Part shown: positions 16,732 through 35,780 of the stretch, one piece after another
How the letters are laid out: each line of letters begins with the position of its first letter
Position numbering within the stretch: the first letter of the stretch is position 1
Origin: Marinobacter halotolerans
GTDB lineage: Bacteria > Pseudomonadota > Gammaproteobacteria > Pseudomonadales > Oleiphilaceae
Length of the DNA stretch: 64,000 bases
NCBI RefSeq assembly: GCF_008795985.1
Contig: NZ_VMHP01000001.1
Coordinates: 1,302,001-1,366,000, forward strand
Direction of reading: 5' to 3'
The notes under the pieces: model-generated
Database searches by the model: none
What the model was told of the DNA's origin: nothing
The model's input: only the letters and a program-made list of their open reading frames with translations
Position numbers and translations under genes: made by a program

Positions 16732-16843
16732 GCGGTCCATGCGGCTTTCTTTCCGGAAAATCGCTGTAAATACGTCCCTGTACGCTCGGGCTCCGCCATC
16801 CATGGCTCCGCACGTTTTCCGGAAAGAAAGCCGCACGGACCGC
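16732..16843. repeat. Hairpin repeat element, copy A (between clpV and vasH)
   Basis: Two 29-base arms (16732-16760 and 16815-16843) are inverted repeats with one mismatch. They enclose a 54-base core that reads, on the minus strand, GTGCGGAGCCATGGATGGC, GGAGCCCGAGCG, then TACAGGGACGTATTTACAGC. The core matches copy C at 49 of 54 positions, but the arms (GCGGCTTTCTTTCCGGAAAA and flanks) match no other copy. It begins 16 bases after the clpV stop and fills most of the gap before vasH. No T-run follows, so it is not a standard intrinsic terminator. Confidence 0.9.
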
Positions 16844-16858
16844 TACGTACAAGTTGGC

Positions 16859-19480
16859 CTAAGCAACCGTTCCCGTGAACTTGTTTTCAGATACGCCCAA
16901 GGTGACTTTCGTCACCGGCTCCCGCGTCGCGAGTTTCTCCAACAACGCCAGGGAAACCGGTGGCAACAACTCACCCTCGATAATCGACTCCAGCATTCGC
17001 GCACCGTTTTCGCTGCGGGTGGCGCGGCTGCGGATGGCGTCTACCAGGCCGTCTTCCAGCTCCACTTCGGTCTGATAGCGCTCGCCGATCTGTTTGGCCA
17101 GGCGGTCAAGTTTGTCGCCAACGATTCTGTTGAGCGTGTCTTCGCCCAGTGGCAGGTAAGGCACCACTTCCATTCGGGCCAGCAGGGCCGGTTTGAAGAA
17201 GTCGGCCAGTTCCGGGTAGAGCGCTTCTTCGATTTTCTCGGGCTCGTCAGCGTGCTTGACGATGGTCTGGTAGCCCAGGTTGGAGGTGAGGAAGAACACC
17301 ACGTTCTTGCAGTCGATCAACCGGCCTTCGCCGTCGGCCAGTTCGCCTTTGTCGAAGGCCTGGTAGAAGAGGTTGAGCACTTCCGGGTGGGCTTTCTCGA
17401 CTTCGTCCAGCAGCACGACCGAGTAGGGTTTCTGGCGGATGGCTTCGGTTAGGATGCCGCCTTCGCCGAATCCCACGTAGCCTGGCGGTGAGCCGATCAG
17501 GCGGGAGACGGTGTGCTTTTCCTGGTACTCGGACATGTTGATGGTGGTGAGGAACTGGCGGCCGCCGTAGAGCAGTTCGGCCAGTTGCACCACGGTTTCG
17601 GTTTTGCCGACGCCGCTGGGGCCTGCCAGCAGGAACGCGCCCATGGGGCGGCCGGGGCGTCGAAGGTCGGCGCGGGCTGTCAGCAGGTGCTGGTGCAATG
17701 CCTTGATGGCGGTGTCCTGGCCCTTGATGTGGGCCTGCAGGTACTCCGGCAGGTGGGTGACTTTTTCCAGTTCGTCGGCGGTCATGCGGTTGACCGGGAT
17801 GCCGGTCCAGTCGGCGATGACTTCGGCGATCTGGCGGGCATCCACGCGGGCGTGAACCAGGGGTTCGTCAGCCTGCATTTCAGCCAGTTCCTGTTCGATG
17901 GCACCGGCTTCGCTTTTCAGGTCGGGGGTTTCTTCAACGGTTCCAGGCGTCTGGTCTTCAACCGTCTCGTCGTCGGCCAACAATTGCTGACGGATTTCCA
18001 CCAGCCGGGCGACCAGCTGGCGCTGGTCTTCCCAGCGTTGTTCCAGGTTACTGGCTTCGCTGCGCAGATGTTCCAGCTTTTCCACCAGCTCGGCTTCGCG
18101 GGTCAGGTCGACGCTCTGGCCCAGGGTCTGTTCGCGGTTCAGCAGTTCCTGCTCCATGCCAAGCTGGTGCAGTTCGCTGCGCACGTGGCTCAGGCGGCGT
18201 GGTGGCGTGCTGAGGTTCAGGCTGACCCGGGCGCAGGCGGTGTCCAGCACGTCGATGGCCTTATCCGGCAGTTGTCGGCCGGCCAGGTAGCGGGCCGACA
18301 TTTCGGCCGCGGCCTTGAGCGCGCTGTCGGCAATCAGGACCTGATGCGATTGCTCATAGACATTGCGCAAGCCCCGCAGGATATGAACAGCCTGCTGCGG
18401 GCTAGGTTCGTCCAGGGCCACCGGCTGGAACCGGCGACTGAGGGCCGGGTCTTTTTCGAAGTATTTCTTGTATTCGCGCCAGGTGGTGGCGGCAATGGTG
18501 CGCAGTTCGCCCCTGGCCAGCGCTGGCTTCAGCAGGTTGGCTGCGTCGGAGCCGCCTTCACTGTTGCCCGCACCGATCAGGGTGTGGGCTTCGTCGATAA
18601 ACAGGATGATTGGCGTGGGTGAGGTTTTCACCGCTTCAATCACGCCTTTCAGTCGCTTCTCGAACTCGCCCTTGACCGAGGCACCGGCCTGAAGCGCGCC
18701 CATATCCAGGGTCCACAGCTCTACATTGGCCAGGCGCTCCGGCACATCACCGTTGACGATGCGCAGGGCCAAGCCTTCCACTACAGCGCTTTTGCCAACG
18801 CCGGCATCACCCACCACGATTGGGTTGTTCTTGCGGCGGCGGCAGAGGATGTCGATCATCTGGTCGATTTCAACATCCCGGCACACCACCGGGTCCAGCG
18901 CTTTGTCCCGGGCACGCTGGGTGAAATCGGTGGCATAACGCTTGAGCGGGTCCATATCCGTCTGGGCCTGAGCCGCAGCAGAAGGGCCACTGTCGGCTTT
19001 CGGCTGTTCCACGGAGCCTTTGGTCATGCGGTCAAACTGACGGCGAAGCTGCTCGCGGTTGATGTCTTTCAGGCGCTGACTGACCTGGGGCATCAGATAG
19101 CGGTCGGCATTCATCAGCAGCGCCAGCATAACGGCGCCGGAGCGCAATTCAGTGTGGCCCAGCTCAGTGGAGGCAATCAGCCAGGCGTCCTGTAGCAGCT
19201 CGATCAGCAGTGGCGAGAAGGATGGATACTGTTCGGCCGTTTGAGGTTCGCCATTCAGGCTGTCACCCACAACCGGCTGCAGAGTATGCGGGTCGATATC
19301 GTTGGTTTCCAGAATCTGACGCACGTCTGAAAAGGGCGTGTCCAGCAGTTTGAACAGCAGGTGGGCCGGGGTGATTTCCGCGCCCTGACGGCTGATGCAC
19401 AGTGCCGCAGAGGATTCCATTCCCTGACGGCAAATCTCGTTGAGGCGCCCGATAAGCGCCGGTAGTTCTACCCGAATCAC
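16859..19480 (-). CDS. clpV: T6SS AAA+ sheath-disassembly ATPase ClpV (TssH)
   Basis: This ATPase of 873 residues has a Clp N-domain, two AAA+ modules and a middle coiled-coil domain. The Walker A motifs are GDAGVGKS near residue 226 and GPSGVGKT near 618, and an arginine- and glutamate-rich coiled coil lies between about 410 and 540. ClpV hexamers extract contracted TssB/TssC sheath for recycling. The first codon is GTG at 19480, with GGAG 7 bases upstream. Translation from it gives MIRVELPALIGRLNEI, the typical ClpV start, whereas the longer frame overlaps tssL. A hairpin repeat follows its stop. Confidence 0.95.
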   Translation of the reverse strand: MIRVELPALIGRLNEICRQGMESSAALCISRQGAEITPAHLLFKLLDTPFSDVRQILETNDIDPHTLQPVVGDSLNGEPQTAEQYPSFSPLLIELLQDAWLIASTELGHTELRSGAVMLALLMNADRYLMPQVSQRLKDINREQLRRQFDRMTKGSVEQPKADSGPSAAAQAQTDMDPLKRYATDFTQRARDKALDPVVCRDVEIDQMIDILCRRRKNNPIVVGDAGVGKSAVVEGLALRIVNGDVPERLANVELWTLDMGALQAGASVKGEFEKRLKGVIEAVKTSPTPIILFIDEAHTLIGAGNSEGGSDAANLLKPALARGELRTIAATTWREYKKYFEKDPALSRRFQPVALDEPSPQQAVHILRGLRNVYEQSHQVLIADSALKAAAEMSARYLAGRQLPDKAIDVLDTACARVSLNLSTPPRRLSHVRSELHQLGMEQELLNREQTLGQSVDLTREAELVEKLEHLRSEASNLEQRWEDQRQLVARLVEIRQQLLADDETVEDQTPGTVEETPDLKSEAGAIEQELAEMQADEPLVHARVDARQIAEVIADWTGIPVNRMTADELEKVTHLPEYLQAHIKGQDTAIKALHQHLLTARADLRRPGRPMGAFLLAGPSGVGKTETVVQLAELLYGGRQFLTTINMSEYQEKHTVSRLIGSPPGYVGFGEGGILTEAIRQKPYSVVLLDEVEKAHPEVLNLFYQAFDKGELADGEGRLIDCKNVVFFLTSNLGYQTIVKHADEPEKIEEALYPELADFFKPALLARMEVVPYLPLGEDTLNRIVGDKLDRLAKQIGERYQTEVELEDGLVDAIRSRATRSENGARMLESIIEGELLPPVSLALLEKLATREPVTKVTLGVSENKFTGTVA

Positions 19481-19490
19481 AGTGATCTCC

Positions 19491-20294
19491 TTATTTCGGG
19501 AGTTGTTCCAGTACGCTGAGCACATCCCTGATGCGTTCATTCAGCGCTGTGTTGTAGAGCGAAAAAACACCGGCCATCGCCACCAGGAAAAGGCCACCTA
19601 TGCTCCATAACGGAAGGCCGCTTCTCAGACGGTTGCGCGCCGGGGTGACGTTGTCCAGAGCACTGGCCAGCGGCTGTGGTTCCTGATCGGAACGCAGTGT
19701 CCGTATCTGTTCGTTGAGGCCGCGAATGATCTGCTCGTATTCATCCCGGCCGTTGACCATAACCTTGTAGCGGCCCTCAAAACCCAGGCACAGGCACAGG
19801 TGAATGAACTCCAGCATGTCGCGGTAGCGTTCCGGCTCCTGCTCCATGCGGGAGGTAATGGCGAAGACTTTTTCGCCGCCCCAGGTCTCGTTGTGAAACC
19901 GAGACAGCAGCGAATGCTGGGACCAGACACTGTGAGCCCCCCAGTCGGTGCCCAGCACGGCTTCGTCGATGAAGGCGCAGAGCACGTAGCGATAGGCCAC
20001 CACGGTGGGGCGCTCGTAACCCTGCTCCACCAGTTCCCGGTCGATGGCCGCTACCTCGTCCACAACCTGCTGGTAGAGGCGATCCACCCCCTGAAAGTCC
20101 GCCAGCCGGCGCACACGGATGACCAGCCCCAGCAGCGGTGTGGCCGCATCGATCAGCCGGTTGTCCTCCAGCCCCCGAAGCTGGAACTGATCTTCTCCCG
20201 GGCCGGCGTCGTCCCGTCCATTGGGGTTATCCGCATCGGCGAACAACAGATCATGAAACGCGCTATTTGAGTCCATCACCGGTGCATCGGCCAT
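19491..20294 (-). CDS. tssL: T6SS membrane complex protein TssL (DotU/IcmH)
   Basis: This protein of 267 residues has the cytoplasmic helical DotU domain (for example YVLCAFIDEAVLGTDWG and LCLCLGFEGRYKV) and one C-terminal membrane segment at about 229-250. There is no peptidoglycan-binding OmpA extension, so anchoring to the wall must come from another protein. It lies 3 bases after tssK and 10 before clpV. TssL bridges the TssJM complex to the baseplate through TssK. Confidence 0.95.
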   Translation of the reverse strand: MADAPVMDSNSAFHDLLFADADNPNGRDDAGPGEDQFQLRGLEDNRLIDAATPLLGLVIRVRRLADFQGVDRLYQQVVDEVAAIDRELVEQGYERPTVVAYRYVLCAFIDEAVLGTDWGAHSVWSQHSLLSRFHNETWGGEKVFAITSRMEQEPERYRDMLEFIHLCLCLGFEGRYKVMVNGRDEYEQIIRGLNEQIRTLRSDQEPQPLASALDNVTPARNRLRSGLPLWSIGGLFLVAMAGVFSLYNTALNERIRDVLSVLEQLPK

Positions 20295-20297
20295 GAT

Positions 20298-21632
20298 TTA
20301 GCTCCTGATTGCCCAGAACTGCATTTCCATTCCCGGGAAGCTGCCGGCCACGTGGAAGGCGAAACCACTTGCGTTGTCCAGCATCTGCCAGGCCTGGCTC
20401 TGATCGTCCAGCCGGAAATACACGAACCCGGCATGGTAAGGCAGCTGGCGGGGCGCCACCGGCAGGGGCGTCAGTGGAACGCCCGGCAACTGCAGGCTGA
20501 TGAGATCGCGGATCTTCTCGGTCGACGCCACCTTGCACTGCTGGGTGAATTGCTTACGAAGGTCGTCCAGTGGCATATCGGCCTTCACCGCCAGGATGAA
20601 TTCGGCGTTGCCGATCAGCTGCGCATCCTGAATCGGCGCAACAGTCAGCCCGTACTGGCGCTGCTGCAGCTGGATGGCCAGCGCCCGCGGCTCCAGCACG
20701 GTACTAAGTGACTGTCTCAGCACCTGCATCAGCGGCGTAAAGCTGTCTTCAGGCAGATCGTGATCGTAGGGGGTGAACTCCTGAGGCAGGCGGTTCTCGT
20801 CGGTAAAGGTGACCAGTTCACCACACAGCTCCAGCAGGGCCTCATAAAGGCGTTCCGGATGCAGCTGACGCAACCTGGCCAGATGCATGAACTTGGGGTG
20901 TGCCCGATTCAGCATCTGCAGCAGCATGAAATCGGCAACGTCTGCAACACCGCCCTGACCCGGCGCACCTACACGTTCGGCGATATTTTTCGCACGTTCA
21001 CGCATCAGACCTGCCATTTCGCCGACGAACCGCTGCAAACGCGGGGCGGCGCGAACGCTGAGCATGGTGGGCACGAAATTCGGGTCCATCACCAGGCTGC
21101 CATCGGGGCGTTTCTCCAGAATCCGGCCGACAGCCAGTGCCGCGTATGCGCTGCGGTCTTCCCGCTCCAGCATCAACCGCGGAGCCACCCGGGCCACGTC
21201 AATGGCGTGGGAGTCACCGTCAATAGAATGCAGGTCCCGCACTTCCGCGCTCTGTGCACGAAAGCGCCCGGCAATCGCCGCTTCCGGCCATTCCACTTCC
21301 GCCAGGCTCTCGCTGCCCAGGGGCAGGGCCAGATACACCACCTGATTGGCCACCGACGCGTCGGTAATTTCCATCGGCTCCGGCATCACGTCATCTTCCG
21401 GCAGACAGAAGCGCGTACCGTCCGGAAACAGGCCGCTGGCGCGGACCAGCCCTACCCGGCCGAAGCTCAGGTATTCGGCGTTCAGCTGCAGGTCACTGAA
21501 GCCATAGAGATAATCCGATACCGCCAGGGCACGTTCGTTGATCTGGTGTTCCAGGTATCGCTGTTGCTGCTGAAAATGCTGCGGCTTGATAAACAGGCCG
21601 TCACTCCAGACTACTCTATTGGTTGCAGACAT
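20298..21632 (-). CDS. tssK: T6SS baseplate protein TssK
   Basis: This 444-residue protein is full length for TssK, with the characteristic N-terminus VVWSDGLFIKPQHFQQQQRYLE and a C-terminal neck/head domain ending MEMQFWAIRS. TssK trimers link the TssFG wedges of the baseplate to TssL and TssM in the inner membrane. The start codon overlaps the tssJ stop as TGATG, indicating translational coupling. Confidence 0.95.
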   Translation of the reverse strand: MSATNRVVWSDGLFIKPQHFQQQQRYLEHQINERALAVSDYLYGFSDLQLNAEYLSFGRVGLVRASGLFPDGTRFCLPEDDVMPEPMEITDASVANQVVYLALPLGSESLAEVEWPEAAIAGRFRAQSAEVRDLHSIDGDSHAIDVARVAPRLMLEREDRSAYAALAVGRILEKRPDGSLVMDPNFVPTMLSVRAAPRLQRFVGEMAGLMRERAKNIAERVGAPGQGGVADVADFMLLQMLNRAHPKFMHLARLRQLHPERLYEALLELCGELVTFTDENRLPQEFTPYDHDLPEDSFTPLMQVLRQSLSTVLEPRALAIQLQQRQYGLTVAPIQDAQLIGNAEFILAVKADMPLDDLRKQFTQQCKVASTEKIRDLISLQLPGVPLTPLPVAPRQLPYHAGFVYFRLDDQSQAWQMLDNASGFAFHVAGSFPGMEMQFWAIRS

Positions 21633-22165
21633 CAGGATTCATCCGACCTTCTGAGTTGAACTTCACGGTCGCGCAGATTGACCAACAGGTGGTACTGCCC
21701 GCCGATTGGATCTACCTTCACCACCTTCTTCCACTGGGACAGGTTGGGGTAGGCGTAAAAGGCAATCACGCCAATGAACCGGGTCTCGTTGGAGATTTCA
21801 AAAGGCTCGATAAACTTGAACTGCCCCGGCACCAGAGTGTAATCACTGTGATCGATGTAGTTGCGGCCCAGTGAAGGTTCCAGCTCGCCCAGCAGCTGAT
21901 CAAAGTCCGCCGCCATCAGGCGCGAGCTGTCCCGCATCTCGATGATCTGGAAGGCGATGGGCGTGGGAGCCAGCGACTCGTTCGGGTTCACATCCGGCTC
22001 GGCCACCATGGTCAGGTCCACCCGGCTCGGCAGGTCTTCCGGATAGCCAACGGGGATGTCCGGGTCCCACATCACTTTCGCGGTTTTGGTTACCGCGTTA
22101 TAGGGTGTGCTGCACCCCACGATGAAGAGAATGACAACCAGCAAACTCCATTTGCAGTACTTCAT
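21632..22165 (-). CDS. tssJ: T6SS outer-membrane lipoprotein TssJ
   Basis: A 177-residue protein with a lipoprotein signal peptide ending LFIVGC, making Cys18 the lipidated residue. It is followed by the transthyretin-like TssJ fold (PTPIAFQIIEMRDSSRLMAADF and GVIAFYAYPNLSQW). TssJ anchors TssM to the outer membrane. The residue after Cys18 is Ser, so outer-membrane sorting is expected. The ATG overlaps the tagH stop by 4 bases. Confidence 0.94.
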   Translation of the reverse strand: MKYCKWSLLVVILFIVGCSTPYNAVTKTAKVMWDPDIPVGYPEDLPSRVDLTMVAEPDVNPNESLAPTPIAFQIIEMRDSSRLMAADFDQLLGELEPSLGRNYIDHSDYTLVPGQFKFIEPFEISNETRFIGVIAFYAYPNLSQWKKVVKVDPIGGQYHLLVNLRDREVQLRRSDES

Positions 22166-23469: not shown

Positions 23470-24486
23470 TTAGCGGCGAATCTGCAGGCTTACAACCGGA
23501 AGCTCGCTGGCCTTTTCCGGCGTCACGAAGGAGTTCCAGCCGAGCCGCACATCCTTGCCCAGCTCCATGGGCCGGACGTCCTTTTCCCGCATCTGAAGTT
23601 CCAGGTCATAGGCCAGTTGCTCGCGGGTCACGAATTCCACCAGTTTCACCAGCCGCTCGTGCTCCTGACCATCGGGCAGAAAATCAGCAAAGCGGTGACG
23701 GTCGAGATTGCGAATCCGCAGAACAAACTTTCCGCTGCGATCGCGAATGGCAGAGCCCACCAGGGTATCGTTGCCCAGAGAAGCGTTGGCTCGGCCCAAA
23801 CGGGTCTGCTGGTCCCCGGGGATTTCCACCTGCCGCAGCACCCACTGCTCGATTTCCACACTGTCCAGATCGAAGCAGTGACCGATAATCCCGCTAACCA
23901 CTTCCGGCGACCGGCTGCGACCGGCCATCAGTCCGGCATAGGCCAGCATTTTTGACCAGTTGACCGGCGTGGCCTGGCGCAATTTCGGATCGCTGAGGCC
24001 GACCAGGGCAAAAATATGATCGGAGAAGCCATCAGACGCTTCCGGCCGGAACCTCACGTAATAGCGATATTTGCGCCAGGCCCGATGAAACAGCGTCACC
24101 AGCCGGTGATTGAAGAAATCCAGGAAATGCCGGCGAATCCCCAGGTTCTGCCCGGCTTCCCAGGCCAGATCTTCCAGGTAGTAACCGGGCAGTGGGGACT
24201 GTGAACCGTGCAGTCCCAGAAAGCTGACTTCCAGCTGGTAAGGCGCGTGCTCATGCTCCGGCGACGCCGCCGAGACCACGTCGCTACCGGGAAAGCCCAG
24301 CCCGGCAGAGGCGGAAAAGCGGATGCGCTCCTGTTGCGGCTGTTGGTCCTGGGACCGCTCCAGATCATCACCGTGGTGCCGGTGAATCAGGTCCACCAAC
24401 TGGAAAAAGTTGTAGCGCCGTGCATTGCCCAAAACGGGCTGCAGTTCGGCTACATCAGGGGCTGTTGCCCTTGCTGTAACGTCCAT
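23470..24486 (-). CDS. tssG: T6SS baseplate protein TssG
   Basis: The 338-residue product begins with a variable lead and then ARRYNFFQLVDLIHRH, a typical TssG start. Further family strings are YYLEDLAWEAGQN and RTRLGRANASLGNDTLVGSA-like sequence. TssG pairs with two TssF to form the baseplate wedge. The gene overlaps the tssF stop by 37 bases, so its ribosome-binding site lies within tssF. Confidence 0.93.
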   Translation of the reverse strand: MDVTARATAPDVAELQPVLGNARRYNFFQLVDLIHRHHGDDLERSQDQQPQQERIRFSASAGLGFPGSDVVSAASPEHEHAPYQLEVSFLGLHGSQSPLPGYYLEDLAWEAGQNLGIRRHFLDFFNHRLVTLFHRAWRKYRYYVRFRPEASDGFSDHIFALVGLSDPKLRQATPVNWSKMLAYAGLMAGRSRSPEVVSGIIGHCFDLDSVEIEQWVLRQVEIPGDQQTRLGRANASLGNDTLVGSAIRDRSGKFVLRIRNLDRHRFADFLPDGQEHERLVKLVEFVTREQLAYDLELQMREKDVRPMELGKDVRLGWNSFVTPEKASELPVVSLQIRR

Positions 24487-26222
24487 GTGTACCGTTCCTG
24501 GTTGTCTTCGTTCACCACTTCCAGGTGGTGAAATGCGTTGATACTGGCGTAGAGCGCAAAGAACTGGCTGAGCACCGTGCCAAACATGTACAGGTCGCCT
24601 TCCGAGGCAAACGACTGTTGGTCCAGCTTCATCACCGAGCGAATCCCGCGCACCGGCAGCCCCTTGATCATCCGGTCCACCGGGTTGGTTTCAATATTCA
24701 GGATACCCGCTAGCCGCTTCTGGGAAATCCGCTCCGCCTGGCGATCCACCAGTGCGCGGAAGTCATAGACCCGCAGAACGGTGCGCAAGGCATCCACGTC
24801 CAACAGCGACAGATAATTCAGTGACAGGTTCGAGATCAGCGTCCACAACAGACTGCCGTCCAGCGTTGGCCGCAGTGTGTGAGTCGGTCGCGTAATGTTG
24901 CTGAAGGACGCAAACGCCGGCGTGCTTTCCGTGGCCATGGAGATCTCCCCCACCGCCAACTGGTGGGGCAGCTGCCGGTTGGTGCAGGTCAGGGTGAGCG
25001 ACACCGCCTCCTGGCGGTTCATGCACTCGGACTCATCGCCCCGCACAAACGAGATGTAGTGATCAAAACCGTCACCACGAACGCTGTCCCGGGCCTTAAC
25101 CCGGTAATACAGCGCCTTGCGACCACGCTCCCGCTCGACTTCATGCTGAAAACTCTCGAACGCAGTGTAGATCCGCGGTTCCCCCAGCCCGGAGCGGCCT
25201 TCCAGCCAGCCTTCCACCTGCTCGATATTGAACACTTCATAGTGCTCCGGCGAACGGCTGGAAGGCGTGATGCGATATTCGGTCTGGCGGCCATTCAGGT
25301 CCACCGGGTCCGCCTCATGGGTGAACAGATTGATCGCTGGCGTGCAGTACAGCTGGAAATTCTCTGCCCGGATTTTCACATCTGGCGGCAGAATGCGGCT
25401 GAAATGGAATCGCAGGCTGATTTCGTCCGCCTGAATCGCTGGCAGTCTTGGCGCCAGGCCCTGCAGATCAACGAACCGGAACGCCTCGGGAAAGCTCAGG
25501 TATTCCTGCAGTATCCGGTAGCCCGGGTAGGCGTTCTTGGGATAGGGCAGGAGCGTTTCGTCGTTGGCGAAACCGACGGGTTGCAACAGGCTGGAGGGAA
25601 TGGAATAAGTCGAATCCCCAACCGTAAGCTCCACTTTCTGCAGGTAGTGGTTCAGCCACAGGTAGAGCGTCTCGCCGATGTGATTCTCGCCACCCAGGTA
25701 GAAGCGCAGCGATTCCAGTCCAATAGAGGACAGCGGCTGGTCTGTATGCAAGGCTAAATCCACGGTCACTGAAGACACTTCCCGGGAGTGCTCGGCGTGG
25801 GCATCCGCAACCGTCAATGGGAACACATCCACCGCCCGGCAGGTGCGAAACCGGCACTGGGTCTGGCGGCTGGCGTCGCCTAGTGGGCGGCTTTTGATTT
25901 CAGTATGGCGCTCGACCCGCTGGCGCTCGCTGATCGCATGAAGCTGGGGATCAAAACGCATGATGGTGCAACTGGGAACCGGACGCAGATAGTTGGGCCA
26001 GAGCATGTTCAGCAATGAATGGGTCAGTTCCGGAAACTCGTCCTCGACCTTCTCGCGGAGTTTGCCAGTCAGAAAGGCAAAGCCTTCCAGCAGTCGTTCA
26101 ACGTCCGGATCGGTGCTCTGCTCAGACAGAAAACGGGTCAGCTGAGGATGCGCATCGGCAAACTCCCGGCCCTGCAATCTGAGAAAACTGAGTTCGTCCC
26201 TGTAAAACCGATTCAACTTCAT
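24450..26222 (-). CDS. tssF: T6SS baseplate protein TssF
   Basis: A 590-residue TssF starting MKLNRFYRDELSFLRLQGRE, the conserved family N-terminus; the open frame upstream of this ATG runs through a hairpin and is not coding. Interior landmarks include DPDVERLLEGFAFL and MLWPNYLRPVPSC. It forms the baseplate wedge with TssG. Unlike most genes of the cluster it is separated from its upstream neighbour tssE by 284 bases, filled by two hairpin elements. Confidence 0.95.
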   Translation of the reverse strand: MKLNRFYRDELSFLRLQGREFADAHPQLTRFLSEQSTDPDVERLLEGFAFLTGKLREKVEDEFPELTHSLLNMLWPNYLRPVPSCTIMRFDPQLHAISERQRVERHTEIKSRPLGDASRQTQCRFRTCRAVDVFPLTVADAHAEHSREVSSVTVDLALHTDQPLSSIGLESLRFYLGGENHIGETLYLWLNHYLQKVELTVGDSTYSIPSSLLQPVGFANDETLLPYPKNAYPGYRILQEYLSFPEAFRFVDLQGLAPRLPAIQADEISLRFHFSRILPPDVKIRAENFQLYCTPAINLFTHEADPVDLNGRQTEYRITPSSRSPEHYEVFNIEQVEGWLEGRSGLGEPRIYTAFESFQHEVERERGRKALYYRVKARDSVRGDGFDHYISFVRGDESECMNRQEAVSLTLTCTNRQLPHQLAVGEISMATESTPAFASFSNITRPTHTLRPTLDGSLLWTLISNLSLNYLSLLDVDALRTVLRVYDFRALVDRQAERISQKRLAGILNIETNPVDRMIKGLPVRGIRSVMKLDQQSFASEGDLYMFGTVLSQFFALYASINAFHHLEVVNEDNQERYTWTLQQGQQPLM

Positions 26223-26249
26223 AAAGACTACTGCACCAATGTCTGATGA

Positions 26250-26338
26250 GGGGAATGGCGATACCTTTTCTGTAGGGAACAAAGGTGTCTGAGCGAAGCG
26301 AGTTCTTTTTCCCGTAAGAAAAGGTATCGCCGTTCCCC
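26250..26338. repeat. Hairpin element with a second core type, directly upstream of tssF
   Basis: Arms of 22 bases (26250-26271, GGGGAATGGCGATACCTTTT and on; 26317-26338) pair with one mismatch around a 45-base core containing GTGTCTGAGCGAAGCGAGTT. The core is unrelated to that of the other three hairpins, yet the design is the same. It starts 28 bases upstream of the tssF ATG, so in the mRNA its arm lies close to the ribosome-binding region. Confidence 0.75.
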
Positions 26339-26347
26339 GCTGACTCC

Positions 26348-26462
26348 GAGCGGCGGTGCAGTCGGGCTTCCAAAAGACGCTCCTTCGGCCCATCCTTGGG
26401 GCGCTTGGGCTCCGCCATCCATGGCTCCGCACACTTTTGGAAGCCCGACTGCACCACCGCTC
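26348..26462. repeat. Hairpin repeat element, copy B (between tssE and tssF)
   Basis: Arms of 29 bases (26348-26376 and 26434-26462, GCAGTCGGGCTTCCAAAAG and flank) pair with one mismatch. The 57-base core read on the minus strand is identical to copy C over its first 32 bases (through GGAGCCCAAGCG). It then switches to CCCCAAGGATGGGCCGAAGG instead of TACAGGGACGTATT, so it is a subfamily variant. The arms are unrelated to those of copies A and C. Confidence 0.88.
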
Positions 26463-29541: not shown

Positions 29542-29562
29542 ATCCCCATCCGAATTACCCAG

Positions 29563-29587: not shown

Positions 29588-29608
29588 ACAATTTCCATGA
29601 AAGAAATT

Positions 29609-29637: not shown

Positions 29638-29680
29638 GCGCGCATCATAACAACAACAATCGACATGGACGCTTTCTCCG

Positions 29681-30007
29681 ATGGAAATCTCCCAGGCACT
29701 GGAACACTCCCAGCCCGGCCTTGTGGCGCGAGTAACCACCGCCATCCGCCGGCACAAGCTTAACTACCGTTGTGAACAAACCTATCTGCACTGGATTTCA
29801 AGATTCGTGCTCTTCCACGATCTGAAAGACCCGTCACTGCTGGAGGCCGGGGATCGCCAAAGGTATCTGGAGTACCTGACCGCTCGGGTTAAAGTGTCCC
29901 GGGCGAGACTTAATCAGGCCACTCAAGCCCTTTCGTTCCTGTATTCGGACGTTCTGAACACAGCCGACCCAGAGCATCAGACGGCAAAGCCCGTAGCCGC
30001 AGCCTGA
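29681..30007 (+). CDS. Stand-alone integrase N-terminal SAM-like domain protein
   Basis: The 108-residue product resembles the core-binding (SAM-like) N-terminal domain of integron- and XerCD-type tyrosine recombinases: VTTAIRRHKLNYRCEQTYL, HWISRFVLFH, then LEYLTARVKVSRARLNQATQ and LSFLYSDVL. The catalytic domain with its Arg, His and Tyr residues is absent. The frame stops after a PVAAA tail, and the next gene runs the other way. It has its own promoter and an intact start, so it may be a maintained DNA-binding protein rather than fresh debris. A truncated integrase relic is the alternative. Confidence 0.75.
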   Translation: MEISQALEHSQPGLVARVTTAIRRHKLNYRCEQTYLHWISRFVLFHDLKDPSLLEAGDRQRYLEYLTARVKVSRARLNQATQALSFLYSDVLNTADPEHQTAKPVAAA

Positions 30008-30013
30008 ACCGGC

Positions 30014-30463
30014 TCAGCGCGGCGTTGTCGTATAGTTGTAAGAGTCGTAGTAGCGATTGGACTGCGGCTGGGGCACGATCTGGTACTGGTTGCTGTGGGT
30101 CTGCCCCGGAATCACCTTCGGGTTACTGAAGTTGAATTCCACCGGGATTTCACTTCGTCCAAGATCCGTGCGGTCGTCCCGCGGCTGCAGAGCCAGGGGA
30201 TCGAGGTAGAAGTCGTCGTCGGTTAGCGGGCGAACCGGAACACCCGCAGCGGGTGCTTCCAGACCACCCTCAATCACTGTATCCGCCAACGAGTCTTCTT
30301 CCAGAGACCGGAAGGGAATGGTCTCAATGGTGGAGCGCTCTTCATAGCTGAACGCACCACCCTCGACCCTGTTTTCACCGGTTTGTGCGTCGACCAGTGG
30401 CGATAGCGCCACCACGACGGCTGCCACACCGATCGTTATTCTTGCTGTTTCGAATCCGCCCAT
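30014..30463 (-). CDS. Secreted hypothetical protein
   Basis: This 149-residue protein has an N-terminal signal peptide (hydrophobic stretch about residues 9-22, cleavage likely after VDA). The mature part is acidic to polar and ends in a Tyr/Asn/Gln-rich tail (QYQIVPQPQSNRYYDSYNY). I recognise no family. ATG 30463 was chosen because the signal peptide begins there. It faces the integrase-domain gene tail to tail, 6 bases apart. Confidence 0.6.
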   Translation of the reverse strand: MGGFETARITIGVAAVVVALSPLVDAQTGENRVEGGAFSYEERSTIETIPFRSLEEDSLADTVIEGGLEAPAAGVPVRPLTDDDFYLDPLALQPRDDRTDLGRSEIPVEFNFSNPKVIPGQTHSNQYQIVPQPQSNRYYDSYNYTTTPR

Positions 30464-30638
30464 GACACTTGCCTTGTTATAATCCCTGTCCTGCCTGAAC
30501 GTCCGCGAATGCCCTATGCACGGTTTCGCGTCAGGTTGACAATTTTTGATCAGTCTAGCGTCAATCATTACCAAAAACCTGATCGACCGTCAGATTTGTG
30601 ACATTCCTCACTTGTCGGATTGCAAGGGTTCGGCGGTC

Positions 30639-31130
30639 TTACCGGACCGGCGGCAGGGGGTCGTAGTGGATGCGTGTTATGACGGTCTGGGTCCATCCGT
30701 CTGGTGTGCGAACACTGACTTCATCCTCGACCCGCTTGCCCAGCAGTGCCCTGGCCATGGGTGCGTCGATACTCAGATAACCACGGGACAGATCGAATTC
30801 ATCCGGCCCCACCAGGCGATAGGTGTGCATGGAACCATCGTCGTTCTCGATGGTCACCCAGGCGCCGAAAAATACACGACCCCGGTCTTCCGGCAAACGG
30901 TCAACCACCGTGAGTTCGTCCAGGCGTTTGCTCAGAAACCGAATCCGCCGGTCTATTTCACGCAGCTGTTTCTTGCCATAGATATACTCTGCGTTTTCCG
31001 AGCGATCGCCCAGCGCCGCGGCTTCACGTACGGCCTGTGTGACCTCCGGCCGCTTTTCTTTCCAGAGAAAACGAAGTTCCTCCCGAAGCGCCTGCTCGCC
31101 CTCTGCGGTGATATAGCGTGTTCTGGCCAT
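30639..31130 (-). CDS. greB: Transcription elongation factor GreB
   Basis: A 163-residue Gre factor. The N-terminal coiled coil (LREELRFLWKEKRPEVTQAV, then AALGDRSENAEYIYGKKQLR) carries the acidic tip residues that stimulate RNA cleavage in backtracked RNA polymerase, and the C-terminal FKBP-like domain follows. The YGKKQLREIDRRIRFL string is characteristic of GreB rather than GreA. The leader contains an intrinsic terminator ending about 23 bases upstream of the ATG, suggesting attenuation. Confidence 0.92.
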   Translation of the reverse strand: MARTRYITAEGEQALREELRFLWKEKRPEVTQAVREAAALGDRSENAEYIYGKKQLREIDRRIRFLSKRLDELTVVDRLPEDRGRVFFGAWVTIENDDGSMHTYRLVGPDEFDLSRGYLSIDAPMARALLGKRVEDEVSVRTPDGWTQTVITRIHYDPLPPVR

Positions 31131-31152
31131 AATCTGCTCTTTCTTCGGACAT

Positions 31153-31176
31153 AAAAAAACCCCGTAAACACGGGGT
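31153..31176 (-). terminator. Intrinsic terminator inside the greB leader
   Basis: On the minus strand ACCCCGT, a 4-base loop and ACGGGGT are followed directly by seven T residues, a textbook terminator. It lies about 23 bases upstream of the greB ATG and no other minus-strand gene ends before it. It should cut most leader transcripts short, giving a small RNA and making greB expression depend on read-through. E. coli greA has a comparable leader RNA, GraL; the analogy is inference. Confidence 0.8.
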
Positions 31177-31385
31177 AAAACTAGCGCTGTGCTGGAGGAA
31201 GACGCAAGAGCCAATTACCCTCTCGACGTCTAAGTCTCTCATTATGCACAGGCCACCTTACCGCCGGGTGGCTCTGGGGTTACGGTTTGGACAGAGTCGG
31301 TATTAGGTTGCGCAGCCTAGAGTCGCGCAGTATCTTCCCGCCAAATAAGCCAGAACCAATGTGTCACTCTTTGATGGGGATTACG

Positions 31386-31673
31386 ATGAACACAAAACAA
31401 CTGCTTGATACCGCCCTGAACGGCCTTGATCGTATCGGTTACCAGCTGGACCAGTATGGCGTCACCGGCAAACTGAACCGGCACAACGTGGCAGCCTTTA
31501 TTATGCTGGAGCAGAAACACCTGGAAGGCGAGTGGGACAGCCTGCAGGCGAAATTTGACCGTCGCCGCTCACAGATCGAAGGCGTCCTGACCGCCATTGA
31601 GACTCGCACTGACCCGCTGATCAAGCCTCTGGTGAGCCGGTTCAATCAGTTCCGTGGCGTGTCCGCCAGCTGA
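31386..31673 (+). CDS. Small helical hypothetical protein
   Basis: A 95-residue product beginning MNTKQLLDTALNGLDRIGYQ, predicted to be mostly helical, with no signal peptide, membrane segment or cysteine. GGGG lies about 6 bases before the ATG. Its composition (LDRRRSQ-like and TDPLIKPLVSRFNQF segments) hints at a coiled-coil or phasin-like association, but that is a guess. No family was recognised. It stands alone between greB and the two-component operon and ends 19 bases from the kinase stop. Confidence 0.65.
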   Translation: MNTKQLLDTALNGLDRIGYQLDQYGVTGKLNRHNVAAFIMLEQKHLEGEWDSLQAKFDRRRSQIEGVLTAIETRTDPLIKPLVSRFNQFRGVSAS

Positions 31674-31692
31674 TCCAGCGCCAATTTATCGA

Positions 31693-33168
31693 TCAAAGGC
31701 TTCTAGCCTCCGCTGACGAAGACGGGTCTCCGGCTTCGGCTGACGAAAGTGTCTGGGTATCCCTCAGACGCTTCCGGCTGGCGGAGTAGGACGGCATACT
31801 GATGGTGACTTTCAGGCCCGGGAACTCCGCATCATCCAGGTGATCACTGAGCCGGATGGTGCCCTGATGAATTTCCGCCACTGCGCTTACCAGGCTCAGC
31901 CCCAAGCCATTTCCCGGCAAGGACCGGCTTTTGCCCACCCGGTAGAAACGCTGGAAGACCTGATCCTTTTCGCTGTCCGGAATGCCTATACCGCTATCCC
32001 CCACCTCGAACACGGCGTTGTCGCCTTCCTTGCGTACCTCGACCCGGATCAAGCCATGCTCGGGAGTGTACTTGATGGCATTATCGATCAGGTTGCTGAC
32101 CATCTGGAACAGCAAGTCACGGTCGCCCTCGATGGACACATCACTATCGACGGACTGCTCGAAACGCTGGTCCTTGTCCTCCGCCACCGCCTCGTAGAGC
32201 TCGCAGGCGTCGGTCACCAGGGCACCGAGAGACACCGGCTTCATATCAGCGCTGTTGCCGCGGGTTTCCAGCCGGGCAATACGCAGCAGCGCGTTGAAGG
32301 TTGCTAGCAGCTGATCCGCTTCCGCCACGGCCCTGGCCGCCTGGTCCCGGGCCTCGTCGTTATCCACCGACATCAAGGTGTTCTCCAGCTGATTACGCAG
32401 CCGGGTCAGCGGTGTTCTCAGGTCATGGGCGATACTGTCGGACACGTGCCGGATACCTTCCATCAGGTACACAATCCGGTCCAGCATCTGGTTCAGGTTT
32501 TCCGCCAGCTGGTCAAAATCGTCGTCGGTGCCTCGGGTGGGAATCCTTAGCGAGAGATGCCCGTTCATGATGCGTCGAGAGGTGTTGTTGATAACCTCGA
32601 TTCTGCGGGTCGTACTGCGACTCATCAGAAAGCCGCCCAGCAGCGCAAGGGCGAGCGTAATGCCCATACCCCAGTTGATGGCACCCTCGATCAGCCGCTT
32701 GAGATTCGTCAGCTCGTCCACATCCCGACCCACCAGCAGCCTCAGACCGCCTTGCACTTCAAAGATGCGGGCACGGGCAAGCCGTTCCGGGCCGCTCCAG
32801 CCAACGGATTCGTCCAGCGTGAAGTTGATCCATCCACTTTCCGACCGCGAGCCCTTGGGCCAGGTATCGATATTGCCGGCGAGCTTGAGAAAATCTTCGG
32901 TGGTCAGTAGATAGATGGACTTGGCGTTGGGATCCCGGGCCACGCGTTCGCGGATAATCGAGATCAGCCCATTCACCCCGCTGCCACGGTACTGCTCTGC
33001 CAACCCGGCGATCTCCGCCTCGATGGTTTCATCGGTCTGAGCCGTCATGAACCCCGCTGTACGCCAGTAGATAAAGGCGAGCAACAGGAACACAGAGGTG
33101 GCAAACACCACCATGTAAAGCAGAGCGAGCTGGAAGGAGGAAGTTCTGAGCTGACTAAGCAGTTTCAC
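31693..33168 (-). CDS. HAMP-domain sensor histidine kinase (QseC/PfeS-like)
   Basis: The kinase of about 491 residues has a membrane segment at about 13-35, a periplasmic domain of about 130 residues, a second segment at about 165-188 and a HAMP domain. The phospho-acceptor box SIAHDLRTPLTRLRNQLE has His near residue 247. The ATP-binding domain shows NLIDNAIKYTPEHG, GDSGIGIP and GNGLGLSLV. I chose GTG 33168, which overlaps the regulator stop by 14 bases, over a longer frame that runs deeper into the regulator. The periplasmic signal is unknown. Confidence 0.88.
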   Translation of the reverse strand: MKLLSQLRTSSFQLALLYMVVFATSVFLLLAFIYWRTAGFMTAQTDETIEAEIAGLAEQYRGSGVNGLISIIRERVARDPNAKSIYLLTTEDFLKLAGNIDTWPKGSRSESGWINFTLDESVGWSGPERLARARIFEVQGGLRLLVGRDVDELTNLKRLIEGAINWGMGITLALALLGGFLMSRSTTRRIEVINNTSRRIMNGHLSLRIPTRGTDDDFDQLAENLNQMLDRIVYLMEGIRHVSDSIAHDLRTPLTRLRNQLENTLMSVDNDEARDQAARAVAEADQLLATFNALLRIARLETRGNSADMKPVSLGALVTDACELYEAVAEDKDQRFEQSVDSDVSIEGDRDLLFQMVSNLIDNAIKYTPEHGLIRVEVRKEGDNAVFEVGDSGIGIPDSEKDQVFQRFYRVGKSRSLPGNGLGLSLVSAVAEIHQGTIRLSDHLDDAEFPGLKVTISMPSYSASRKRLRDTQTLSSAEAGDPSSSAEARSL

Positions 33169-33835
33169 GAAGCATGTACCCGGCACCACGAATGGTCTGT
33201 AGCAGGGGTGTCTCGAATTCCTTGTCTATCTTGGCCCGCAGACGGCTGATGTGAACATCAATCACATTGGTCTGCGGATCGAAATGATAGTCCCATACTT
33301 TTTCCAGCAGCATGGTACGGGTGACCACCTGCCCGGCGTTACGCATCAGGTACTCCAACAGCCGGAATTCCCGGGGCTGGACATCAATGTTCTGGCCGGC
33401 GCGCTTGACCGTGCGGGCCAGCAGGTCCATCTCCAGGTCTGCCACGTGCAGCACGGTTTCCGTCTCCGTTGACTGGCGGTTGCGGCGCACCAGGGATTCA
33501 ATCCGGGCGAGCAGCTCGGTAAACGAAAAGGGCTTGGTCAGGTAGTCATCACCACCGCCACGCAGGCCTTCGACTCGATCGTCCACGTCTCCCAGTGCGC
33601 TGAGAATCAGCACGGGCACCTGATTGCCGGTGGCACGCACGGTTTTGACGATGGCCAGCCCGTCCATCCCCGGCAGCATCCTGTCAACAATCATGATGTC
33701 GTAGTCTTCGCTGGCGGCCATCATCATGCCGTCTTTCCCGTCCGCCGCGTGATCCACGACAAAATCGGATTCCTTTAACCCTTTGACGAGGTAATTCGCC
33801 ACATCTTGATCGTCTTCAATGACAAGCGCTTTCAC
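33155..33835 (-). CDS. OmpR-family response regulator
   Basis: A 226-residue regulator. Its receiver domain carries Asp8/Asp9, phospho-acceptor Asp51 (MIVDRMLPGMDG) and Lys101 (YLTKPFS). The C-terminal winged helix ends VWDYHFDPQTNVIDVHISRL and IRGAGYML. It resembles QseB/PfeR/CopR-type regulators; targets cannot be named from the sequence. It is first in an operon with the kinase. Confidence 0.92.
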   Translation of the reverse strand: MKALVIEDDQDVANYLVKGLKESDFVVDHAADGKDGMMMAASEDYDIMIVDRMLPGMDGLAIVKTVRATGNQVPVLILSALGDVDDRVEGLRGGGDDYLTKPFSFTELLARIESLVRRNRQSTETETVLHVADLEMDLLARTVKRAGQNIDVQPREFRLLEYLMRNAGQVVTRTMLLEKVWDYHFDPQTNVIDVHISRLRAKIDKEFETPLLQTIRGAGYMLRETA

Positions 33836-33938
33836 CGGAAGTCCTCCTGATAGCGGATTACATTAACAGCTAGGGTACGAGTATGGCTGATTGGCGGCCA
33901 GTTACGATCTTGTAAGAGGGTGTCGCCATTTACGACGG

Positions 33939-34718
33939 TCACGCTCGTGCGCGAAACCATTCAAGACTGTCAGTGGTTGTTCCGGCCGGCCGATACTCGG
34001 CACCCACCCAGCCTTTGTACCCCATACGATCCAGTGCCTCAAACACCCTCGGAAAATGGATCTCTCCCGTGCCGGGCTCGTGACGCCCAGGGTTGTCCGC
34101 GATCTGGATATGGGCGATCCACGGCAGCAGACACTCCATTGTGCGAATCAGGTCCCCTTCCATGATCTGCATGTGGTAGATGTCGTATTGCAACTTCACA
34201 TTGTCAGCGTCTACTGCCTCAATCACCTGTATAACCCGGGATGAGGTATCCAGGAAGAACCCGGGCATATCCACCCGCGAATTGATGGCTTCCAGGCAAA
34301 GGGTAATGCCAGCCTGCCCCAGTTTCTCAGCCGCATATTCCACATTGGCAACCAGCGTGTTCCAGGCTTCGGCCTCATCCAGGTTGGACGGGCAGAGCCC
34401 CGCCAGGCAGTTCAACTGGGAGCAGCCCAGAATACGGGCGTAGTGAATAGCCTTGTCAACGCCAGCCTGAAACTCCTCAACCCGATCCGGCAGGCAGGCA
34501 ATGCCTCGCTCACCGGCATCCCAGTCTCCCGGCGGCAGGTTGAACAGAACCTGAGTCAGACCATTGGCGTCCAGCGCCTGCTTCAGCTCTTCAGCGGGCC
34601 AGGCATAGGGAAACAGATACTCCACACCCTTGAAACCCGCTTCGGCCGCCAGAAGGAACCGATCCTGAAACTCCGCTTCGTTGAACAGCATCGACAGGTT
34701 TGCTGCAAAGGCTGGCAT
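33939..34718 (-). CDS. hyi: Hydroxypyruvate isomerase
   Basis: This 259-residue TIM-barrel protein of the sugar isomerase/epimerase family has the paired catalytic glutamates expected for Hyi, Glu143 (LCLEAINSRVDMPGF) and Glu241 (WVGAEYRP), plus QYDIYHMQIMEGDL. Hyi interconverts hydroxypyruvate and tartronate semialdehyde. It starts 3 bases after glxR, so together they cover the last steps of the glyoxylate carboligase route; gcl is not in the window. A 2-oxo-tetronate isomerase (OtnI) is the closest alternative. Confidence 0.85.
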   Translation of the reverse strand: MPAFAANLSMLFNEAEFQDRFLLAAEAGFKGVEYLFPYAWPAEELKQALDANGLTQVLFNLPPGDWDAGERGIACLPDRVEEFQAGVDKAIHYARILGCSQLNCLAGLCPSNLDEAEAWNTLVANVEYAAEKLGQAGITLCLEAINSRVDMPGFFLDTSSRVIQVIEAVDADNVKLQYDIYHMQIMEGDLIRTMECLLPWIAHIQIADNPGRHEPGTGEIHFPRVFEALDRMGYKGWVGAEYRPAGTTTDSLEWFRARA

Positions 34719-34721
34719 GGG

Positions 34722-35636
34722 TTATCCCTCTTTTGGTTTTTTGATGGATGTGCCCATCAGCACACCATTCTGGTGTTCCAGTTCCAGCAACAGGCCACTG
34801 TGGTCCACCTCGCTGTGACCGTTGGCAATCAGGCCGAGATAGCCATTGTGAACCTGCTGGGCCAGGGGCAACGTCAGCCCCTCTGCGCGGGCCTCATCCA
34901 GAATCATGCGCAAGTCTTTCAACTGAATCCGCGCCGGGGCACCGGGAGCAAAATCCCGGTCAATCATCCGCTGACCGTGCAGCTCCAGGATTCGACTACC
35001 GGCAAAGCCACCCATCAGCGCTTCCCGCACCGCCGCCGGATCCGCCCCGCCCTCAGCAGCCAGCAGCAATGCCTCAGACACCGCCCCGATGGTAATTCCC
35101 ACTATGGCCTGATTCGCCAGCTTCGCCAACTGCCCACTCCCCACCGGCCCGATTCGCGTGCATTTGCCCAATGCCTCAAAAACCGGCCGGACCCGGGCAA
35201 TATCCTCCTCGGAACCGCCCGCCATAATGCTCAAGGTCGCCTGTTCGGCTCCGACCGTGCCACCGGAAACCGGCGCGTCCACATAGCCAGCGCCTCGTTG
35301 CCCGGCTAACTCGGCGTGGTGACGGGCAAGCGATGGCTGGACTGAACTCATGTCCACATAGACCGCTCCAGTTTTCAGCGCTCCGATACCGCCTTGCTCC
35401 ACCATCACATTGTCCACCACGTCTCCGTTCTCCAGCATGGTGATCACAATGTCGGCCTCACGAACAGCGGCTTCCGGTGAGTCCGCCACGGTTGCTTCAC
35501 GGCTGAACGAATCGCACTTACTGGCGGTGCGGTTCCAGAGCGTCAGGTTGTATCCAGCGTCCAGGAGGTTCCGAACCATGGGCCCGCCCATTAACCCGAC
35601 GCCAAGAAAGGCAATAAGAGTGTTTTTGTTGGTCAT
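34722..35636 (-). CDS. glxR: Tartronate semialdehyde reductase (2-hydroxy-3-oxopropionate reductase)
   Basis: The 304-residue protein belongs to the beta-hydroxyacid dehydrogenases. It has the NAD(P) motif GVGLMGGPM at residues 12-20, the substrate loop DAPVSGGTVGA at 120-130 and catalytic Lys172 with Asn175 (KLANQ). The family reduces tartronate semialdehyde to D-glycerate. Pairing with hyi supports this over 3-hydroxyisobutyrate dehydrogenase. Upstream lies hairpin repeat copy C and then rpoH. Confidence 0.85.
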   Translation of the reverse strand: MTNKNTLIAFLGVGLMGGPMVRNLLDAGYNLTLWNRTASKCDSFSREATVADSPEAAVREADIVITMLENGDVVDNVMVEQGGIGALKTGAVYVDMSSVQPSLARHHAELAGQRGAGYVDAPVSGGTVGAEQATLSIMAGGSEEDIARVRPVFEALGKCTRIGPVGSGQLAKLANQAIVGITIGAVSEALLLAAEGGADPAAVREALMGGFAGSRILELHGQRMIDRDFAPGAPARIQLKDLRMILDEARAEGLTLPLAQQVHNGYLGLIANGHSEVDHSGLLLELEHQNGVLMGTSIKKPKEG

Positions 35637-35662
35637 AATTTCTACTCGTCTACTCCACAGCT

Positions 35663-35780
35663 GGAAGAAGCGATTGGGCAGGGGTTTTCAAAACTGTGCG
35701 GAGCCATGGATGGCGGAGCCCAAGCGTACAGGGACGTATTCACAGCATGTTTTGAAAACCCCTGCCCAATCGCTTCCTCC
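35663..35780. repeat. Hairpin repeat element, copy C (between rpoH and glxR)
   Basis: Arms of 32 bases (35663-35694 and 35749-35780, containing GCGATTGGGCAGGGGTTTTC) pair with one mismatch around a 54-base core at 35695-35748 that reads on the plus strand GTGCGGAGCCATGGATGGC and ends TTCACAGC. The core is 49/54 identical to copy A in the opposite orientation. The arms match no other copy. It starts 27 bases upstream of the glxR ATG, whereas rpoH has its own terminator further upstream. Confidence 0.9.

Follow-up and report, generated by a model that had tools for sequence, protein, structure and literature searches.

The window, a stretch of 64,000 nucleotides of Marinobacter halotolerans DNA, contains three hairpin elements, designated A, B and C, in each of which two long stem arms enclose a core (Table 1). 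The initial annotation described inverted repeats of 29-32 nt with one mismatch, and we recovered these as 29 nt in A and B and 32 nt in C, each 97% complementary; a recount likewise gave identity at 49 of 54 core positions between A and C. Three copies of the 21-mer GGAGCCATGGATGGCGGAGCC, all with 0 mismatches, lie in the window, whereas 100 shuffles gave none, and the folding z-scores of the three elements are -8.3, -8.0 and -7.9. In a mechanically derived ORF list, every copy is flanked on either side by a nearest long ORF of the minus strand, in line with the co-directional neighbours reported earlier. The strand of the core does vary: A and B carry it on the minus strand and C on the plus strand, so that C is antisense to both flanking ORFs. 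In their longest forms, the ORFs downstream of A (15114-16799) and B (24450-26432) extend into the element, the ORF starts being provisional. Minimum-energy folds of B and C fail to show both small hairpins; folded without the arms, A and C form both, and B forms P2 alone.

Table 1 Features of elements A, B and C, in positions of the 64,000-nt window
Feature	Position	Strand	Basis or remark
Element A, whole hairpin	16732..16843	- (GGA strand minus)	model R1 match, 116.6 bits; no RF01731 match up to E 10
A 3' stem arm (GGA-strand sense)	16732..16760	-	inverted-repeat detection
A 5' stem arm	16815..16843	-	sole mismatch is G-U in GGA strand
A hairpin P2, GCC-AUGGAU-GGC	16795..16806	-	motif search and covariation
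A hairpin P3, UAC-AGGGAC-GUA	16771..16782	-	read from sequence; covariation
Element B, whole hairpin	26348..26462	- (GGA strand minus)	R1 110.6 bits; RF01731 38.3 bits
B 3' stem arm	26348..26376	-	inverted-repeat detection
B 5' stem arm	26434..26462	-	sole mismatch is U-G in GGA strand
B hairpin P2, GCC-AUGGAU-GGC	26414..26425	-	motif search and covariation
B hairpin P3, CCC-AAGGAU-GGG	26389..26400	-	both stem sides altered, GGA retained; read from sequence, covariation
B third motif AAGGA, not in P2/P3	26381..26385	-	sequence
Element C, whole hairpin	35663..35780	+ (GGA strand plus)	R1 119.1 bits; RF01731 24.8 bits
C 5' stem arm	35663..35694	+	inner 28 bp perfect; one A-C mismatch farther out
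C 3' stem arm	35749..35780	+	inverted-repeat detection
C hairpin P2, GCC-AUGGAU-GGC	35703..35714	+	motif search and covariation
C hairpin P3, UAC-AGGGAC-GUA	35727..35738	+	read from sequence; covariation

A, B and C are members of a family dispersed in dozens of copies across Marinobacter genomes. A search with the core gave 38 matches in this genome, 35 of them at E<0.005, and about 31 copies bear a stem (31 among the loci retrieved, A, B and C included); the core was matched in 96 of 100 Marinobacter genomes, the source genome counted. Outside the genus, at least two ANGGA motifs were present in 17/18 and 16/18 of the matches read, with varying P2 and P3 stems. The core consists of two short hairpins whose loops, AUGGAU in P2 and ANGGAY in P3, carry the CsrA/RsmA-type motif, and some cores hold a third motif, AAGGA. 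This analysis found a single csrA gene (MLILTRRVGETLMVGDD...) in the genome. Among 29 copies of this genome the first 31 core nucleotides are 0.95 identical. The outer stem has a fixed length of 28-29 bp, complementarity falling from 0.78 at pair 28 to 0.46 at pair 29 and to about 0.25 farther out. The arms had been called unrelated, which is not entirely so: among the 29 copies their inner halves are 0.60 identical and their outer halves 0.41, against a composition expectation of 0.32, and the inner arms have in common a weak consensus, TTCCAAAA, adjoining the core.

Reading the pairs of 210 stems on the GGA strand, we counted 5481 Watson-Crick pairs, 79 G·U, 9 A·C and 42 other mismatches, with six Planctomycetota/Kuenenia loci excluded (three more such loci, L216, L226 and L238, were not excluded by name). 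In the non-redundant set of 69 stems, one per arm cluster, G·U exceeded A·C by 30 to 2 (binomial p=2.5e-7), and this excess on the GGA strand therefore indicates that selection acts on the RNA of that strand. The bias is weaker in copies antisense to both neighbours (11 G·U, 2 A·C; p=0.022), and the locus C set gave 6 against 2 (p=0.29). A non-template C-to-T mutation bias would favour G·U too, presumably by a smaller factor. Covariation was scored on 62 elements, the 69 cluster representatives less 7 with irregular loop lengths and with no Planctomycetota/Kuenenia locus among them: 97.5% of cells were paired, the score of 0.797 compared with at most 0.129 for slid partners and was reached in 0 of 500 shuffles, and changes on both sides were seen in 27 of the 28 outer pairs and in 2 of the 3 pairs of P3. 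One of the five covariation measures, further pair types, stood at shuffle level (96 vs 93.3; 122 of 500 shuffles reach the value). Strand-specific G·U tolerance, covariation and CsrA-type loops support an element that is selected at the RNA level, and they favour one of the two models first put forward, selection for a fixed protein- or RNA-binding core within a long stem.

The Marinobacter elements resemble TwoAYGGAY (RF01731), in which two hairpins with AYGGAY loops lie within a long external stem; AUGGAU of P2 fits this motif and ANGGAY of P3 is close, often inexact, the external stem encloses both hairpins, and copy B aligns to positions 1-168 of RF01731, the whole model, which many congeneric copies likewise match over its full length. 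PMC4333381 predicts CsrA binding for TwoAYGGAY and describes its external stem as poorly conserved, and the tandem GAs mentioned there may have their counterpart in the internal GGA/GGA loop of P2. At the Rfam gathering score, 0 matches were obtained in the window. When five copies were compared with RF01731 at E<=10, scores were 38.3 (B), 33.1 and 24.8 (C) bits and A and L023 were unmatched, so that the window copies fall below the cut-off of 43 bits, which at least one match reaches in 7 of 31 Marinobacter genomes. The elements also differ from TwoAYGGAY in their dozens of copies per genome, as counted here for Marinobacter, their 28-29 bp stem and the third motif of some cores.

CsrB/CsrC and RsmX/Y/Z are dedicated, promoter-driven sRNAs, few per genome, and they and Alteromonas Aln1 are like the present elements in carrying GGA motifs in hairpin loops, with presumed or known titration of CsrA. 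Aln1 is likewise presented as a dedicated, promoter-driven sRNA with few copies per genome in PMC5864184. In contrast, the Marinobacter elements occur in many copies, each with two or three sites and no recognisable promoter: for the sigma-70 type, 6.8% of 133 copies score at least 9 upstream compared with 7.5% of shuffled upstream sequences (copies from 100 of 110 Marinobacter loci, with 13 of 147 rows, incomplete or opposite-strand echoes, dropped). RF00166 has no match above its cut-off of 44 bits in this genome; the best one scores 24.3 bits, and 3 GGA occur in the 180-nt stretch read. In P. putida, an intergenic long palindromic region and ISPpu8-adjacent regions were recovered with Rsm proteins, according to PMC7937890, and the likeness to our elements is that of an intergenic palindrome as described there. 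Among the papers listed from the open PubMed Central library, none concerned these Marinobacter elements, and a search of viral contigs with one exact element pattern gave 0 matches.

We propose, with a probability of about 0.64, that the elements are a dispersed structured RNA, a high-copy variant of TwoAYGGAY that probably titrates CsrA. The architecture, the stem length, the covariation of the outer stem and P3, the selection on the GGA strand, the paired arm changes and the species differences are observed; the mechanism built upon them is conditional. RNA of the GGA strand would be made, often by read-through from neighbouring genes, a CsrA dimer would bind the paired GGA loops, and the copies would jointly pull CsrA off mRNAs. 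The core would be fixed by protein recognition together with an exchange of core types between copies, the latter suggested because different cores sit inside like arms, as in genomes G000 and G046 (arms identical at 25 of 28 positions) and also at locus C. The stem would need pairing alone and would drift through compensated changes; a core held by recognition and exchange and a stem that has only to pair would therefore produce a fixed core with a private stem. Several results weigh against the proposal: upstream sequence shows no sigma-70-like promoter, the near-random orientation to genes described below would require antisense transcription of many copies, the G·U bias is weaker in copies antisense to both neighbours and could partly reflect mutation bias, one covariation measure stays at shuffle level, the minimum-energy folds of B and C lack the full set of small hairpins, RF01731 does not match A, and few copies keep their place in G061 or, for locus C, in genomes with split flanks. 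More tentatively, and with less than even odds in our judgement, Marinobacter and many other gammaproteobacteria may possess a distributed CsrA buffer of dozens of interchangeable, exchange-homogenised two-loop cassettes in 28-29 bp stems. Such cassettes, possibly cut out by RNase III, would be spread across transcription units, and the level of free CsrA would then follow overall transcription instead of depending on one or two CsrB-type genes.

Alternatively, each copy may act in cis on its mRNA, with the stem protecting or ending the neighbouring transcript and loop-bound CsrA tuning it locally. The stable structure evident from the fold z-scores fits this, as does the proximity to gene ends, with medians of 29-49 nt except in the -/+ context, where the downstream gene lies at a median of 85.5 nt (contexts follow a crude longest-ORF rule), and the upstream gene has the same sense in 91 of 151 cases when paired elements are included. 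The 96 single elements, however, are oriented roughly at random relative to their neighbours (+/+ 28, +/- 23, -/+ 20, -/- 25; same-sense upstream gene in 51, p=0.61). No conserved T run, as in the U-tract of an intrinsic terminator, lies 3' of the 3' arm, and genome G061 yielded an element at the corresponding position for only 7 of the 31 copies, the remaining 24 not being found there. Moreover, TwoAYGGAY bears an 'n' under cis-regulatory in a table of PMC2864571, although Rfam gives RF01731 the type Cis-reg. We consider a cis-acting role unlikely.

A mobile repeat of the MITE or REPIN kind, whose spread would be the main point and whose CsrA binding would be secondary or parasitic, could account for the high copy number and for the presence or absence of the element differing between species. 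At locus C, for instance, many genomes beyond the relatives retrieved lack the element, and of 32 genomes whose flanks are split there, 21 leave no space for it. Wherever two elements lie less than 400 bp apart they stand back-to-back (14 of 14 such pairs, and a further 4 of 4 observed in this genome), an arrangement reminiscent of inverted REP pairs. REP/BIME, MITEs and integron attC sites are likewise small dispersed palindromic repeats, yet in these the stem or the ends are conserved, whereas the present elements conserve their loops and have private stems: the arms, in the place of terminal repeats, lack conservation from copy to copy, as the outer-arm identity given above illustrates. Target-site duplication was also absent, the flanks of one locus matching at 4.83 compared with 4.79 +/- 0.07 across loci (145 flank pairs), and strand-specific selection on RNA speaks against the mobile reading as well, to which we assign a low probability.

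The other model put forward in the initial annotation, in which the core inserts and then copies the adjacent strand into its own arms, finds some footing in four loci (L017, L018, L020 and L021) that combine an identical 58-nt core with differing arms, and in template switching, which PMC8794818 reports to make and mend RNA hairpins. As an origin of the arms we rejected it as very improbable: the stem length is fixed, the inner arms have a consensus in common, there is no target-site duplication, and 28 of the 29 relatives retrieved at locus C (a carrier-enriched set, the query having included the element) carry the hairpin with shared arms altered in pairs. Nor did the few empty sites read by eye contain one full pre-existing arm, as that model had anticipated. 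An inverted repeat without core, named beforehand as a refuting observation, was seen in two species, but there the core and the inner arms look to have been deleted (the direction being inferred); outer-arm remnants retained at some empty sites are probably the result of deletion.

Fully compensated changes were sorted in 59 independent close pairs of elements: pairs differing at no more than 4 places had 33 transitions and 10 transversions, compared with 72 and 84 in pairs with 5-8 differences; in the six flank comparisons listed, transitions were about equal to transversions in three and ahead in three. Compensated transitions are reachable through G·U intermediates and transversions are not, and since both occur, stem mending by template switching may act alongside G·U drift. 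Changed pairs cluster somewhat (66 adjacent vs 48.6 +/- 5.5 expected), which would also suit arms made by the element itself. A DNA-level cruciform or recombination signal would agree with near-perfect inverted repeats in intergenic DNA, but it is scarcely credible, as a double-stranded signal gives no reason for the excess of G·U on the GGA strand.

Collectively, these findings assign a large class of intergenic palindromes, which in the window fall below the Rfam cut-off, to an RNA family without known function, and they supply strand-specific comparative evidence that this family acts as RNA. With many copies that combine fixed loops and free stems, the family offers a natural data set on the upkeep of perfect long RNA stems. 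If CsrA binds the copies, the usual view, in which each genome has one to a few dedicated antagonist sRNAs, would have to be supplemented by a distributed counterpart.

Inverted-repeat and core searches of the window recovered the three hairpin copies with inverted repeats described in the initial annotation. R1, a covariance model built from an alignment (A1) of 62 elements with dissimilar arms, likewise found copies A, B and C, with no further match in the window at E ≤ 1. The hairpin feature is real and orderly. In the 3.78-Mb genome of M. halotolerans (G000), the core query gave 38 matches, 35 of them at E < 0.005, and 31 stem-bearing copies were extracted among the loci fetched. The core was matched in 96 of 100 genus genomes, this one included; the number of candidates at first look ranged from 0 to 84 per genome.

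Hairpin elements and associated features
Feature	Position	Strand	RF01731 (TwoAYGGAY) score, cut-off 43 bits
Copy A	window 16732-16843	-	no match
Copy B	window 26348-26462	-	38.3 bits, end-to-end alignment
Copy C	window 35663-35780	+	24.8 bits
Second long hairpin, directly adjoining copy B	window 26250-26338		
Close pairs in own genome	G000:C1 near 292.8, 369.9, 372.4 and 1428.6 kb		
GTAGGTCGGATTAGC repeat between paired elements	L276:3424-3438		

In A1, a 28-bp outer stem (P1) encloses the hairpins P2, GC(GGA)GCC-AUGGAU-GGC(GGA)GC, and P3, NNC-ANGGAY-GNN, with an extra AAGGA in some cores. P1 complementarity drops abruptly from 0.78 at pair 28 to 0.46 at pair 29 and about 0.25 further out (69 cluster representatives). 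Within the named structure, 97.5% of cells were paired and 30 of 38 pairs had both sides changed in at least one sequence. The covariation score was 0.797, compared with 0.098-0.129 for slid partners, and was reached in none of 500 shuffles; by one covariation measure, further pair types in A1 were no more numerous than in shuffles. P1 served in choosing the elements, a stem being present at 210 of 226 core hits, so that the level of P1 pairing is partly built in. P3 played no part in that choice, and its CG and UA pairs swap for each other with GGA retained. Among natural variants at the place of copy C (locus C), L066 lacks P2 and L064 has a core shortened around it, both retaining the outer stem.

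A stem mutation that reads as G·U on one strand reads as A·C on its complement. On the strand whose RNA bears the ANGGAY loops (the GGA strand), G·U pairs numbered 79 and A·C pairs 9 across 210 stems; when each arm cluster was represented once, the counts were 30 versus 2 (p = 2.5e-7). The excess held in every gene context, being weakest where both neighbours are antisense (11 versus 2), and was not significant in the locus C set (6 versus 2). These counts suggest a footprint of RNA-level selection; a strong transcription-linked mutation bias appears the less likely source. Whichever holds, the GGA strand would therefore be transcribed.

Orthologous loci with and without the element were compared, as put forward in the initial annotation for seeing whether one arm pre-exists: at locus C, arms have changed in pairs among relatives sharing the element and other relatives lack it, and some empty sites at other loci show outer-arm remnants. 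At locus C, the hairpin occupied the same place in 28 of the best 29 relatives by score, a set biased toward carriers because the query contained the element; their arms span 26-29 bp, apart from one case of 18 in which a mismatch splits the stem. Among the matches listed, the two flanks appear as distinct hits within a single contig in another 32 genomes, and in 21 of these, by our own count, fewer than 100 bases separate the flanks, leaving no space for the element, which at this locus is therefore common to part of the genus only. At locus B, the hairpin finder detected the element in 21 of 29 retrieved relatives, and the core was also seen by eye in L086; one genome (G067) lacks the element, with the apparent outer ends of both arms remaining. 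In a five-site cluster (one site with an irregular stem), two pairs are absent from G061, and G036 and G017 hold outer-arm remnants, in places short palindromes, with the core gone. Deletion would be the simpler reading of these remnants, a direction that we infer. G061, the best-scoring relative in both locus comparisons, holds 7 of the 31 copies at the same place (five via flank comparison, plus B and C), a count that may miss diverged cores.

Differences between arms of close copies are mostly whole-pair changes (15 of 27 in the closest class). Within one genome, the copies L017, L018, L020 and L021 have the same 58-nt core but arms that are clearly unlike. Different core types also occur inside similar arms: several relatives carry a longer core type at locus C, and at one locus the G000 and G046 copies match at 25 of 28 arm positions and differ in core. 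Different cores inside similar arms point to exchange of cores among copies, a new insertion precisely within old arms being a conceivable alternative.

Among 96 single elements, orientation relative to the neighbouring genes was random (51 had a same-sense upstream gene, p = 0.61); an earlier, partly overlapping set that included paired elements (91 of 151) leaves room for a mild same-sense preference. Singles lie at medians of 29-49 nt from gene ends, and 85.5 nt from the downstream gene in the -/+ context. Pairs less than 400 bp apart were all back-to-back with GGA strands outward, at 14 of 14 named loci (including L154, L165, L181 and L202) and in 4 of 4 close pairs of the own genome, and orientations were mixed in pairs further apart (8, 5, 6, 8). 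Eight of 12 close pairs with usable neighbours lay between convergent genes. The sigma-70 promoter consensus was not found upstream of elements and does not account for the pairing. Inverted copies accompany the GTAGGTCGGATTAGC repeats between paired elements in several species (also L282, L284, L289 and L290). The hairpin adjoining copy B has a different loop, containing AACTCGCTTCGCTCAGAC, and recurs at orthologous loci.

As background, CsrA has the finer consensus CANGGANG and a SELEX site. RF01731 matched 26 of 31 genus genomes at E ≤ 0.001 (7 of 31 over the cut-off) and none of 14 control genomes, and we file the elements as a variant of TwoAYGGAY. PMC2864571 lists this family as a probable RNA that is not cis-regulatory, with human gut, gammaproteobacteria and Clostridiales as its sources, and PMC4333381 predicts CsrA binding and calls the outer stem poorly conserved. 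The CsrA motif is given as A(N)GGA in single-stranded regions (PMC5864184). A long intergenic palindrome and regions adjoining ISPpu8 were recovered with the Rsm proteins of Pseudomonas putida (PMC7937890), an experimental parallel of possible homology to the Marinobacter elements.

Among 293 genomes of the order, from 118 genera, R1 matched 115 genomes, from 55 genera, at E ≤ 1e-4; Marinobacter accounts for 12 of the matched genomes. In a phylum-wide draw, 16 of 299 genomes matched at E ≤ 1e-6: four are Marinobacter, five more belong to the order, and seven come from elsewhere in its class. At least two ANGGA motifs were present in 17 of 18 non-genus matches of a first set (L274 has one) and 16 of 18 of a second (L319 and L335 have one), with P2 and P3 stems unlike those of Marinobacter. 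An exact core 22-mer, GCGGAGCCATGGATGGCGGAGC, occurred in at least 119 named stretches, at least 110 from Marinobacter and at least nine from Planctomycetota or Candidatus Kuenenia assemblies (L127, L141, L152, L170, L186, L194, L216, L226 and L238). At the Planctomycetota loci it sits within another GC-rich repeat with a weak R1 match (27.9 bits at best); the hairpin finder detected a clear long stem in one of six Planctomycetota or Kuenenia loci read (L186).

Sequence comparisons show the fixed architecture, RNA-strand selection, covariation, paired arm changes at shared loci, and presence or absence between species. In the mechanism proposed here, element RNA would be made by transcriptional read-through, its two loops would bind one CsrA dimer, and the summed copies would titrate CsrA, for which the own genome gave one csrA match; the 28-29 bp duplex may permit release by RNase III. 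The regulatory role is hypothetical. The puzzling private stems find an ordinary explanation in a structured RNA, where pairing is all that the stem requires, and the earlier reading of selection for any long stem holding a fixed core is supported by the strand-specific G·U excess, covariation and CsrA-type loops. The elements do stand out in their copy number, their constant stem length, the probable exchange of cores and the invariable back-to-back arrangement of close pairs.
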